Of a stretch of 49,265 nucleotides of DNA, positions 42,046-45,542 are shown in pieces. The stretch is from Burkholderiales bacterium. Lineage in GTDB: Bacteria > Pseudomonadota > Gammaproteobacteria > Burkholderiales > Burkholderiaceae_D. Below the pieces are notes generated by a model that saw nothing but the letters and a program-made list of their open reading frames with translations, did not search any database and had not been told where the DNA came from. Position 1 is the first letter of the stretch. The number at the start of each line of letters is the position of its first letter. The DNA is taken from positions 8,447 through 57,711 of the forward strand of contig PLEY01000135.1 of the NCBI GenBank assembly GCA_003136595.1. The letters are read 5' to 3'. A program made the translations under genes and the position numbers.

Positions 42046-43056
42046 TCATGCCGACCCGTCGAGGACGGTCGACGGGTGCTGCAAGCCCCGCCCCTCGTGC
42101 GGCCCCCGAAATGCCTCGCGGGCCGCATCGAGCACAGCCTCGCGCAGCCAGGCGTAGCCGGCCCGGTCATCCCGCAGGCGGTGCCAGACCATCTCAACAT
42201 GGACCTGGTCGATGGTGAGGGGGAGCGGCACGGTCGCGAGCCGTTCAGCGATCCCGGTGGATCCCAGGAAATGGCGCGGCAGGACGGTCAAGAGTTCCGA
42301 TCCTGAGACGACCAGCGCGGCGGTGAAGAACTGGTTGACCGTGAGCACGATACGACGCTGGCGCTTCAGTCCGGCCAGGGCCTCGTCGACAAAGCCGAAG
42401 GGCTTACCCGATAGGCTCACGAGCACATGGTGAGCCGCGCAGTATTCGTCGAGCGTGATGCTGCGGCCAGCGAGAACATGCTCGCGGCGCATGGCACAGA
42501 CGTACTCGCCGTCATAAAGACGCTGGTGGGCGAGAACGTCTGGTTCCGCATCCTGCATGCCGCGTTGCGCGATGGCGGCGAGAACCGAGGGAAAGTAGCC
42601 CACCGCGAGGTCGGCCTCACCGGTCTCGAGCAACTCGCGAGGGTCGCGGGTGGTGAGCGGCATGACGCGCAAGGAAACTCCCGGGGCCTCGGCATCGACG
42701 CGTCGAATCAAGGGTGGAACGAGTGCAGCCGAGGTCGCGTCCGCCATGGCGAGCACGAAGGTACTATTGGCCTGAGCTGCGTCAAATGGCTCAGGAATGA
42801 GCGCCTGTTGCAACTGGGCCAGGGCGCTGCGCACGGCCGGCCAGAGCGCCTGGGCTTGCGCAGTCGGTTCGACCCCGTAGCCGGCGCGGACCACAAGGTC
42901 GTCGCCAAGCGCCTCACGCAGCCTGCGCAGGGCGTTGCTGACAGCAGGCTGGGTCATCGCTAGGCTGCTCGCAGCGCGGGTCAGGTTGCGCTCGGCCATG
43001 ACGGCGTCGAATACGCGCAGCAGGTTCAGATCGAGGTTCTTGAACTTGGCAATCAA
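42046..43056 (-). CDS. LysR-family transcriptional regulator
   Basis: The 336-residue protein has the N-terminal LysR winged helix (LNLLRVFDAVMAERNLTRAA, LAMTQPAVSNALRRLREALG) and the effector-binding domain (about 95-300). Effector-domain segments such as ADLAVGYFPSV and ADATSAALVPPL are typical of the NodD/LinR-like branch. The C-terminal about 35 residues are extra. It is divergent from the membrane-protein gene at 43170, with a 113-base AT-rich spacer holding a near-perfect palindrome (43128-43148). It may regulate that gene and its own. Confidence 0.92.
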   Translation of the reverse strand: MIAKFKNLDLNLLRVFDAVMAERNLTRAASSLAMTQPAVSNALRRLREALGDDLVVRAGYGVEPTAQAQALWPAVRSALAQLQQALIPEPFDAAQANSTFVLAMADATSAALVPPLIRRVDAEAPGVSLRVMPLTTRDPRELLETGEADLAVGYFPSVLAAIAQRGMQDAEPDVLAHQRLYDGEYVCAMRREHVLAGRSITLDEYCAAHHVLVSLSGKPFGFVDEALAGLKRQRRIVLTVNQFFTAALVVSGSELLTVLPRHFLGSTGIAERLATVPLPLTIDQVHVEMVWHRLRDDRAGYAWLREAVLDAAREAFRGPHEGRGLQHPSTVLDGSA

Positions 43057-43127
43057 ATCATTCGCGATCGAAATAGTACATATACGTAATTATAATTGGA
43101 ATTCGAGATAGATCGGCTCCATACTGC

Positions 43128-43169: not shown

Positions 43170-43574
43170 ATGGCGACGACGTCAGTACTTGGAGAAGCGC
43201 GTGACCCCCGGAATTCCGGCGAGGCGGCTGCCGCTGCCGGCTGGCGGGACGGCTTCGAGCACGTGCTCGGTCTTGCGCTTTCGAGCGCCGTGGTGGCGGC
43301 TGTTGTTGCCGCGGCCGCCCTCGGGTTCTCGAGAGGGGGAAGCGAGCAGTTTGGCCTGGAGTGGGCAGCGCTATGGGCGCTGGCCTTCGTGACGCTCCTG
43401 TTCACCGCCCGGGTAGCACTGGCGCTTGCAAAGGCTGTGGCACCGAGCGTGGGCCGTGCGCTCGAAAGGCGCCGTCTGCAGATCGACGATCAGCGCTTTC
43501 TGGACTGTGCCCGGCGCGATCCACGGCTCATGGCCGATATCGACGGCGCGATGCGCCGCTGCGAGTGGCATTGA
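43170..43574 (+). CDS. Two-helix membrane protein, unknown function
   Basis: The 134-residue protein has two membrane helices (about 33-53, LGLALSSAVVAAVVAAAALG, and 63-90, EWAALWALAFVTLLFTARVA) and a cytoplasmic-looking charged C-terminus (RALERRRLQIDDQRFLDCAR). No family is recognised. ATG at 43170 has GAGGAG nine bases upstream. It is divergent from the LysR gene and followed 73 bases later by the Hfq-like gene on the same strand, so the two may be cotranscribed. Confidence 0.65.
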   Translation: MATTSVLGEARDPRNSGEAAAAAGWRDGFEHVLGLALSSAVVAAVVAAAALGFSRGGSEQFGLEWAALWALAFVTLLFTARVALALAKAVAPSVGRALERRRLQIDDQRFLDCARRDPRLMADIDGAMRRCEWH

Positions 43575-43647: not shown

Positions 43648-44094
43648 ATGTCAGCCCAGTTTGATTTTCTGAATACCCTGCGCCGTGAGCGGCGCCTCGT
43701 GGTGGTGTACCTGATTGGCGGGACCCGCCTGCAGGGCAGAATTGCCTCGTTCGATCAGCAGGGGCTGCTGCTTGAGACCAAGAGCGGGATGGTGCTGTGC
43801 GCGCAGGACCAGGTCAGCACGGTCGGGCGCGATGTCCCCCGGGCACTCCTGCGCGGCCTGGGTCGCAGCCCAGGCGAGACGCGCCAGCCCGACAGGCCGA
43901 GCGAGGCGCGGCCGCAGCGACCGATGGCGCAGCTTGAACCCGCTGTCGACGGCTATGAACGTGCGATTGCCAGCAACGAGCCCGACCATCACGACGCGCG
44001 GGCGGGGCGGAGCAGCGGCGTTGCACCGGTGGTCACGCAGAAACTGCGTCGCAAGATCACGGTTCCAGAGTTGCAGGCCAAGACCGTTCCCTAG
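43648..44094 (+). CDS. Diverged Hfq-like Sm protein with C-terminal extension
   Basis: The 148-residue protein begins with an Hfq Sm domain (residues about 4-62): QFDFLNTLRRERRLVVVYLI, GGTRLQGRIASFDQQGLLLE and MVLCAQDQVSTV. Kept are the rim arginines (LRRER), the Y-L-x-x-G-x-R/K-L-Q-G segment of the A-rich-RNA-binding distal face and the FDQ turn. Changed is the second Sm motif: E. coli MVYKHAISTV becomes MVLCAQDQVSTV, losing K56/H57 of the U-rich-RNA proximal face, and phenylalanine 42 is replaced by Gln. A long, charged, probably disordered tail follows. ATG at 43648 has GAAGG about nine bases upstream. A canonical hfq is expected elsewhere in the genome (usually beside hflX), so this looks like a specialised paralogue. 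Confidence 0.82.
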   Translation: MSAQFDFLNTLRRERRLVVVYLIGGTRLQGRIASFDQQGLLLETKSGMVLCAQDQVSTVGRDVPRALLRGLGRSPGETRQPDRPSEARPQRPMAQLEPAVDGYERAIASNEPDHHDARAGRSSGVAPVVTQKLRRKITVPELQAKTVP

Positions 44095-44126: not shown

Positions 44127-45542
44127 TCAGTTTCCCGTGACGATGCCGGTCATCAAGACCACTTCGAAATCCGACCCGGTTACCTGGCTTAGGGCACTCA
44201 AAGCGTTGTCATCCCAGCGCGAGTCGGGTGCGCCGCTGACATACCAGCTGCTGCCATTGTCTGCGACGATCATTCCATAGGTCTTCATGGCCTGCAGGAT
44301 CGCCTTGACCTCGGGGCTGAAGCTTGACGGAATCACATAGCTTGCCTTCAGGCGCACCCGCATGCCCATCGGCGGCACGTTCGTCGACGTGTCGCTCGAT
44401 GCATAGTGGTCAGCCGGTGGCAGATACGCGGCGCGAGTTTTGTTGACTGTAAAGCGCAGCGCATGCGGGATGACTCCATTGTGTGCCTCCTCGTAACGCA
44501 CGAGTCCCGGGAAGATCGGCAGGCCTGCCGCGTCCGCACTGGTCCAGTCGGCTCCGGCCGTGGGCCGCACATTGTCCGAGTCGAGGTGGAAGAGCGCCGC
44601 CGAGCTCGCACTCCACGCCGTTCCAGAGGTCAAGTAGCTGGCCGGGCTCGACTGCCACATCTCGTAGAGACGGTTGGTATCGCGGTCGATGACGAGCACG
44701 TGCATGTCTCCACCCGGGCCGCCCGAGGCCGCGCCGACGGGTTCACCCTCGACCGGCGCATTGTCGGGCACGGGAAATGGGCCCGGATCGCTTTGGGAAG
44801 CGTAGGCCGTGATCGTGACTGGAACCGGGGTCTGGGAGCTGCTCACCACGACGTAGGGAATGCCGATCACGCCACCGCTGTAGGTTCCAGATCCGAAGTC
44901 AGGATGCAGACCCGTGTTCAACCCGATGCTACTGATGAGGTTACTCGAATTGGGATCGACCGCCGCCTGGGAGATGTCGGTGTTCCAGGCGTTGTCTGCC
45001 GGAAAGGGGATCGCACCATTCAGATTCGCACCGATGCCAAGGTCGGCCCCCGCCATGGCGGCGTAGTGCGTCGCGACAGCGCCGATCGTGACGGTCGCAG
45101 TCGCCTTGGTCTGACCCCCGGTTCCGGCAGCCGTCAGGGTGTAGGTGGTGGTTGCGGTGGGCGTCACGGTGACCGAAGTACCGGTGACGCTGCCGATTGC
45201 AGGGCTGATCGTGAGACTGCTCGAATTGCTCACCGCCCAGGTCAGCATCGTGGATTGACCGGCGCCGATCACTGTAGGCGTTGCCGCGAAGCTTGTGATC
45301 GAGGGCGCACCCGAACCGGTGGGGCTGGTCGGGGCCGGTGTGCCGGACCCGCTGCCAGACGTCCCGGCGCCCGAAGTTCCCGAGCCCGACGTGCTTGACC
45401 CCGACCCGGCGGTGCTCCCGGTGCTGCCCGAGCCGCCCCCGCCGCCGCACGCGGCGAGAAGTACAGACATCGTGCTGATCAGGAGGGCACGCTCGAGATA
45501 AATGAGCGCGCGACGCGGGGTTTTCACGGTGCAGGCGGGCAT
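44127..45542 (-). CDS. Secreted lipoprotein with Ig-like domain and unknown C-terminal domain
   Basis: The 471-residue protein has a lipoprotein signal (LLISTMSVLLAAC) followed directly by a Gly/Ser/Thr linker. An Ig-like domain (about 75-150: SITSFAATPTVIGAGQSTML, TPTATTTYTLTAAGTGGQTK) precedes a large domain (about 165-470) rich in aromatic and Asp/Asn residues (FPADNAWNTDISQAAVDPNS, DMHVLVIDRDTNRLYEMWQS, RYEEAHNGVIPHALRFTVNK). The domain recurs in secreted proteins of soil bacteria as far as I recall, without known function; it could be carbohydrate-related. ATG at 45542 is preceded by AAGGAACG. It is on the same strand as the upstream DsrE-like gene, 37 bases away, so they may be an operon. 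Confidence 0.75.
   Translation of the reverse strand: MPACTVKTPRRALIYLERALLISTMSVLLAACGGGGGSGSTGSTAGSGSSTSGSGTSGAGTSGSGSGTPAPTSPTGSGAPSITSFAATPTVIGAGQSTMLTWAVSNSSSLTISPAIGSVTGTSVTVTPTATTTYTLTAAGTGGQTKATATVTIGAVATHYAAMAGADLGIGANLNGAIPFPADNAWNTDISQAAVDPNSSNLISSIGLNTGLHPDFGSGTYSGGVIGIPYVVVSSSQTPVPVTITAYASQSDPGPFPVPDNAPVEGEPVGAASGGPGGDMHVLVIDRDTNRLYEMWQSSPASYLTSGTAWSASSAALFHLDSDNVRPTAGADWTSADAAGLPIFPGLVRYEEAHNGVIPHALRFTVNKTRAAYLPPADHYASSDTSTNVPPMGMRVRLKASYVIPSSFSPEVKAILQAMKTYGMIVADNGSSWYVSGAPDSRWDDNALSALSQVTGSDFEVVLMTGIVTGN

Follow-up and report, generated by a model that had tools for sequence, protein, structure and literature searches.

The hfq-like gene and its neighbors

The window analyzed here was the whole 49,265-nucleotide stretch of Burkholderiales bacterium contig PLEY01000135.1. 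An ATG-initiated ORF was confirmed on its forward strand at 43648–44094, with the stop codon ending at 44094, and the product consisted of 148 aa (hereafter, the window protein). The product matched Pfam Hfq (PF17209, Sm superfamily) with 40 bits, above the curated cut-off of 27, and stayed below the NCBIfam Hfq equivalog cut-offs (TIGR02383/NF001602: 44.7 vs 61.7 and 45.7 vs 95). The Pfam search of its own genome revealed two Hfq matches, the window protein (41.6 bits) and a canonical 77-aa Hfq with the sequence YKHAIST, encoded on a separate contig between genes identified by sequence as der and hflX. With a canonical hfq elsewhere in the genome, the window gene is a second copy, the paralogue that the initial annotation had proposed, rather than the main Hfq.

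A LysR-type regulator (Pfam HTH_1 and LysR_substrate; conserved in the congener) is encoded divergently on the reverse strand at 42046–43056. Between it and the hfq-like gene, a forward ORF at 43170–43574 encodes a protein of 134 aa that has two hydrophobic stretches; it was 52% identical to its counterpart in the congener and had no Pfam match above cut-off. The intergenic region between lysR and this membrane ORF contained a 21-bp element (43077–43097), 20 bases of which were identical in the congener locus L003; it is a candidate regulator site. The public record of L003 is titled Rhodospirillales, while its contig belongs to the second genome of the window's genus (G010), and the title may be a mislabel. 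Downstream, at 44127–45542 on the reverse strand, lies a gene for a putative lipoprotein of 471 aa without a Pfam match, a homologue of which was present at the same place in L063/L003.

The three genes (lysR, membrane ORF and hfq-like gene) had the same order in the two genomes examined from the genus. In tblastn (E ≤ 1), the membrane ORF matched one of 18 loci, the congener, and gave no match in the other 17, of which 16 were other paralogue loci; among 145 genomes of the family it matched three, one of them only at E 4e-4. The membrane protein is thus essentially genus-specific, and an operon with it outside the genus was sought in these 18 loci and 145 genomes and not found. The initial annotation had taken the arrangement as a hint of a conditionally expressed unit. 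Within the genus this stands, with three genes together and the 21-bp element, and a conditional unit is plausible there; beyond the genus, and for the protein family, it does not.

Comparison of the window gene with that of the congener gave dN 0.073 and dS 1.56 for the Sm domain (dN/dS about 0.05), and dN 0.66 and dS 0.98 for the tail. The ring (Sm) part is strongly constrained and the linker far less. A mobile origin was rejected, as plasmids and phages had no tblastn match to the window protein; in viral contigs, no relative was found with the window protein or with profile A3. A hairpin with an AAGG loop before the ATG was not unusual (z −1.19; 28 of 200 shuffles folded equally well), and the leader of the congener was no more unusual (z −0.84).

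Sm domain

The Sm domain comprised residues 1–60 (43648–43827, forward strand). When the window protein was modeled alone with AlphaFold, the first six 10-residue blocks had block-mean pLDDT values of 77–92, and the modeled fold consisted of an N-terminal helix and five strands. Structural comparison placed E. coli Hfq (PDB 3rer) at the top, with Z 11.7, rmsd 1.0 and 44% identity over 61 residues, and among the 50 entries listed, all those with a legible title were Hfqs.

The initial annotation described the YKH motif as replaced by a two-residue-longer LCAQDQV. The absence of YKH was verified; the excess length relative to canonical Hfq was one residue, and alignment located it in the beta3-beta4 loop. 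Relatives carrying Tyr-His-His aligned without gaps to the window protein across the LCAQDQV stretch, and the AlphaFold model had a helical turn of three residues at 53–55. From the gapless alignment, the single loop residue and the helical turn, Ala52-Gln53-Asp54 (43801–43809, forward strand) was set equivalent to Tyr55-Lys56-His57.

RNA-binding faces

In published descriptions of Hfq, the U pocket is formed by Gln8, Phe42, Lys56 and His57, and the lateral site by Asn13, Arg16, Arg17, Ser38 and Phe39 (PMC5379935); further residue roles were drawn from PMC5348863. These residues were counted in the 28 Sm domains that remained, after identical ones were collapsed, in the clade of the window protein (see below), and in 68 canonical rows. 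Selection of the canonical rows used a pattern containing Gln52, Tyr55, Lys56 and His57, so that Gln52 and YKH occur in 68/68 of them by construction; the fair comparison is with 19 other paralogues, which had Lys56 in 19/19 and Gln52 in 18/19.

Lys56 and Gln52 were each present in 0/28 clade members. Position 9 was Phe in all 28, vs Asp or Glu in 68/68 canonical rows. Phe or Tyr at position 42 and Asn28 were each kept in 2/28 (vs 68/68), and Lys or Arg at position 47 in 0/28 (vs 68/68), the clade having Glu, Gln, Asp or Ala there. Every clade member kept Gln8, Asn13, Arg16, Leu26, Gly29, Ser38 and Phe39; Arg17 and Arg19 were each found in 27/28 and Tyr25 in 25/28. Tyr55 and His57 were each present in 23 of the 28, and in the window protein, L003 and G034, Tyr55, Lys56 and His57 were all absent together.

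In the proximal pocket of the window protein, Gln8 was kept, and positions 42, 56 and 57 were Gln, Gln and Asp; the replacement of Phe42 by Gln had been noted in the initial annotation. The distal-face residues, described initially as kept, were kept only in part: Tyr25, Gly29, Leu32, Gln33 and Thr61 were retained, and four positions had changed (Asn28 to Gly, Ile30 to Thr, Lys31 to Arg, Gln52 to Val). LQGRI and FDQ were both present. The rim patch RRERR occupied residues 12–16 (43681–43695, forward strand); its RRER at 12–15 agreed with the rim arginines described earlier, and rim Lys47 was Glu.

Taken with the published residue roles, these losses and retentions show at the sequence level that the U-rich 3'-end pocket was lost, the distal face altered and the rim kept. 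Loss of the proximal U-pocket (the sRNA 3'-end pocket) across the clade, which the initial annotation had proposed for the window protein, is well supported by the alignments. The distal A-site is altered, and the arginine rim is the best preserved RNA surface of the clade Sm domain. The loss of Gln52 in 28/28 and of Asn28 in 26/28 weakens the earlier idea of A-rich mRNA being bound by an intact distal face.

Tail and basic tip

The tail covered residues 61–148 (43828–44091, forward strand), 88 residues rather than the 85 first given; AlphaFold gave no structure past residue 67, and the tail evolved fast. A conserved basic motif near its end, PVVTQKLRRKITV (44026–44064, forward strand), had been overlooked and is newly described here. 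The paralogues resembled one another at their ends, and the linker was otherwise hardly alignable.

A Gibbs search found a 13-residue motif in 19/19 training tails, a set that excluded f1 clade members and was chosen after inspecting sequences. The motif ended 0–11 residues from the C terminus in 18 of the 19, and 28 residues from it in L069. The best score was 482, vs 263–285 for eight shuffled tail sets; the real set was searched in six runs of 60 rounds (436–482) and each shuffled set in one run of 40 rounds, so the real set was somewhat favored. Among held-out tails, that of the window protein was equaled or exceeded by 2 of 20000 shuffles, L003 by 13, L160 by 5 and L168 by 3 of 20000. The tip of G034 was weak alone (99/20000 shuffles and 7/1555 control ORF ends as high), and L071 (5075/20000), L068 (462/20000) and L174 (797/20000) had no convincing tip. 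In a control with 1555 other ORF ends from mechanical frames, one scored at least 14.5 and seven scored at least 8.6; the one reaching 14.5 was a transporter helix in the window.

For the Hfq2-like proteins of family f31, 23 of 28 loci scored at least 8.6, two of these being training sequences, and five scored lower. Other second Hfqs, the f31 proteins included, share the basic tip. Tips such as PVVVTRRRR, VTIVRRRSR and VVIRK..RR were seen across families f31, f9 and f1 (L175–L197, L094–L121 and L160–L164). A PDB sequence search with one f9 tip peptide revealed no related tip.

The net charge of the last 20 residues was positive in 28/28 clade members, and the calculated pI of the window protein was 10.5. 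In canonical Hfqs, the last eight residues were negative in 86/89 and positive in 0/89. The acidic tail tip of E. coli Hfq is described as binding the basic rim and limiting RNA binding (PMC5606850). A basic tip is not expected to bind an arginine rim, and it is therefore proposed as a putative gripping or docking arm.

Relatives and phylogeny

Close orthologues were few: among the matches listed from 392 genomes of the family, three genomes (G000, G010 and G034) carried the window paralogue, at E 2e-19 or better, the other listed matches being at 3.5e-9 or worse. G010 corresponded to public contig CAJCID010000049.1, as checked by sequence. Profile searching in 399 genomes from the order added members of family f9, taken from among the matches listed. 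By our own tally, which includes L172, a tail-bearing paralogue was present in 29 of 74 f9 genomes, and 24 of these 29 also gave a second Hfq match (E ≤ 1e-13); the f9 sequences read exclude the contig-end fragment G839. A canonical hfq match was absent in G792, G830, G818, G825 and G788. YKH was kept at all of the best 19 loci outside the order (L125–L143) in a search of 369 genomes from the class.

In a tree of 77 Sm domains, 28 paralogues including that of the window formed one clade with support of 100/98; the tree was built on 72 columns, was unrooted with long branches, and contained 30 of the 68 canonical rows, drawn randomly. The clade was read in families f1 and f9, both of one order (Burkholderiales). 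A branch with support of 98/77 had the f31 Hfq2-like proteins and the window clade together on one side in this unrooted, long-branched tree. Forcing all tip-bearing paralogues into one clade cost 0.85 log-likelihood units and was not rejected (p-AU 0.43). On 72 columns with long branches, a common origin of the window clade and the f31 Hfq2-like proteins is no more than likely.

Comparison with known Hfq proteins

Like canonical E. coli Hfq (PDB 3rer), the window protein has the Sm fold, the arginine rim, Gln8 and Tyr25; unlike it, the protein has no YKH, an extra loop residue, no Gln52 and an 88-residue tail with a basic end. The Borrelia gene bb0268 was formerly called an Hfq. It has been renamed flgV (PMC10802407), which is a caution against naming a function from divergent Hfq-like sequence.

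Burkholderia Hfq2 is described in PMC7074383 as a protein of 175–216 aa with a variable glycine-rich tail. The window protein resembles it in being a second Hfq beside a canonical one and in having a long low-complexity tail that evolves faster than the Sm part. The f31 proteins are probably Burkholderia-type Hfq2, judging from length, tail and family, and their basic tip is related (sequences such as PVVVTRRRR). They keep Lys56, whereas the window clade lacks Lys56 and Gln52 and has Phe9. The triads of the 28 f31 loci were YKR in 21, YKK in one, YKH in four and FKH in one, and one was unread by the pattern. Neither a Lys56-less Hfq clade of Burkholderiales nor a basic Hfq2 tip was found in the literature searched or in the portions read of PMC7074383 and PMC3474761.

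Hfq3 of Bacillus anthracis (pXO1; PMC5348863) is likewise an additional, divergent Hfq with RNA faces unlike those of the main copy. Its proximal Lys is retained, its arginine rim is missing (IEEQ where RRER would stand) and its tail is very short; the window protein shows the opposite pattern.

Proposed role of the window protein

The identification of the window protein as a divergent second Hfq of the Hfq2 type that is under selection is well supported. Its role was read from the surfaces that survive, and the best reading is a putative RNA factor that works by rim and tail. We give about an even chance to the proposal that this divergent Hfq2-type protein binds RNA by rim and tail and is not an sRNA 3'-end chaperone. 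It would be an Sm-fold subunit, most likely forming a ring beside the normal Hfq. At the sequence level, its proximal U-rich 3'-end pocket is dismantled and its distal A-site changed, and RNA would most likely be contacted by the conserved arginine rim and the long disordered tail with its basic tip. Such a protein may bind or anneal a subset of RNAs with no need to grip an sRNA 3' end, and would be free of the autoinhibition by an acidic tip that is known from E. coli Hfq. In work reported in PMC12262471, the rim mutant R16A lost nearly all RIL-seq RNA pairs and retained partial regulatory activity. E. coli Hfq with K56A gave no apparent hexamers on semi-native gels (PMC5348863), which makes the ring stability of the window protein uncertain.

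The opposite tail charges of the canonical protein and the paralogue would also suit mixed rings with canonical Hfq, which the initial annotation had raised, or tip-to-tip docking of basic on acidic ends, by which sRNA work would be tuned or poisoned. The same fold, the canonical Hfq in the same genome and the further Hfq match that 24 of the 29 paralogue-bearing f9 genomes gave speak for this reading, and one Bacillus Hfq is described as monomeric and dominant-negative (PMC5348863). We nevertheless hold it unlikely, as the other five of these f9 genomes gave no canonical hfq match, though all five are drafts of 68–97% completeness. Rather improbable is that the tip docks on a protein partner or DNA with the Sm ring mainly a scaffold: the motif combines beta-branched with basic residues, stands at or near the C terminus, outlasts a hardly alignable linker and belongs to a protein of pI 10.5, but no RNA surface of the Sm domain is kept as strictly as the rim site, no partner was found, and the PDB sequence search matched no related tip.

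An ordinary sRNA-mRNA chaperone with an altered sequence preference would account for the retention of Gln8, the arginine rim and part of the distal face, and for His57 and Tyr55 in 23 of 28 clade members each. The joint absence of Tyr55, Lys56 and His57 from the window protein, L003 and G034, and Phe9 throughout the clade, make it quite improbable. Long branches and the fast-evolving tail are what a degraded, functionless copy would have, and the initial annotation had named homologues that all keep YKH as a sign of one; Lys56 was absent from all 28 distinct clade domains. A decaying copy was rejected, with dN 0.07 vs dS 1.56 in the Sm domain against the congener, and the clade-wide fixed positions and the intact ORFs in other genomes leave it very improbable. 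Overall, the observations of the initial annotation were partly confirmed and its interpretation partly supported.

A wider proposal, which is tentative and doubtful at present, is that the second Hfqs of the order are one old family with the basic tip as its hallmark, that the tip grips RNA or docks on canonical Hfq, and that the window clade has departed furthest, having given up sRNA 3'-end recognition so that it relies on rim and tail only. In textbooks, Hfq is the RNA chaperone with three faces. A selected natural ring with the rim, without the proximal pocket and with a basic tail end would separate the roles of rim and tail from sRNA 3'-end binding. If true, the basic tip reverses the known tail logic of Hfq, in which an acidic tip shuts the rim. 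Why Burkholderia and relatives retain two Hfqs is called unclear in a comparative paper (PMC7074383), and the tip offers a concrete conserved handle on that question.

Within this genus, the window protein may be co-expressed with the small membrane protein under the divergent LysR regulator. As a separate observation, genes for a lipase-like protein, an Nramp transporter, a ferritin-like (Dps-type) protein and a DsrE-like protein surround the hfq-like gene between 37506 and 48890, and L003 holds ORFs that by eye resemble the Nramp transporter, the ferritin-like and the DsrE-like proteins.
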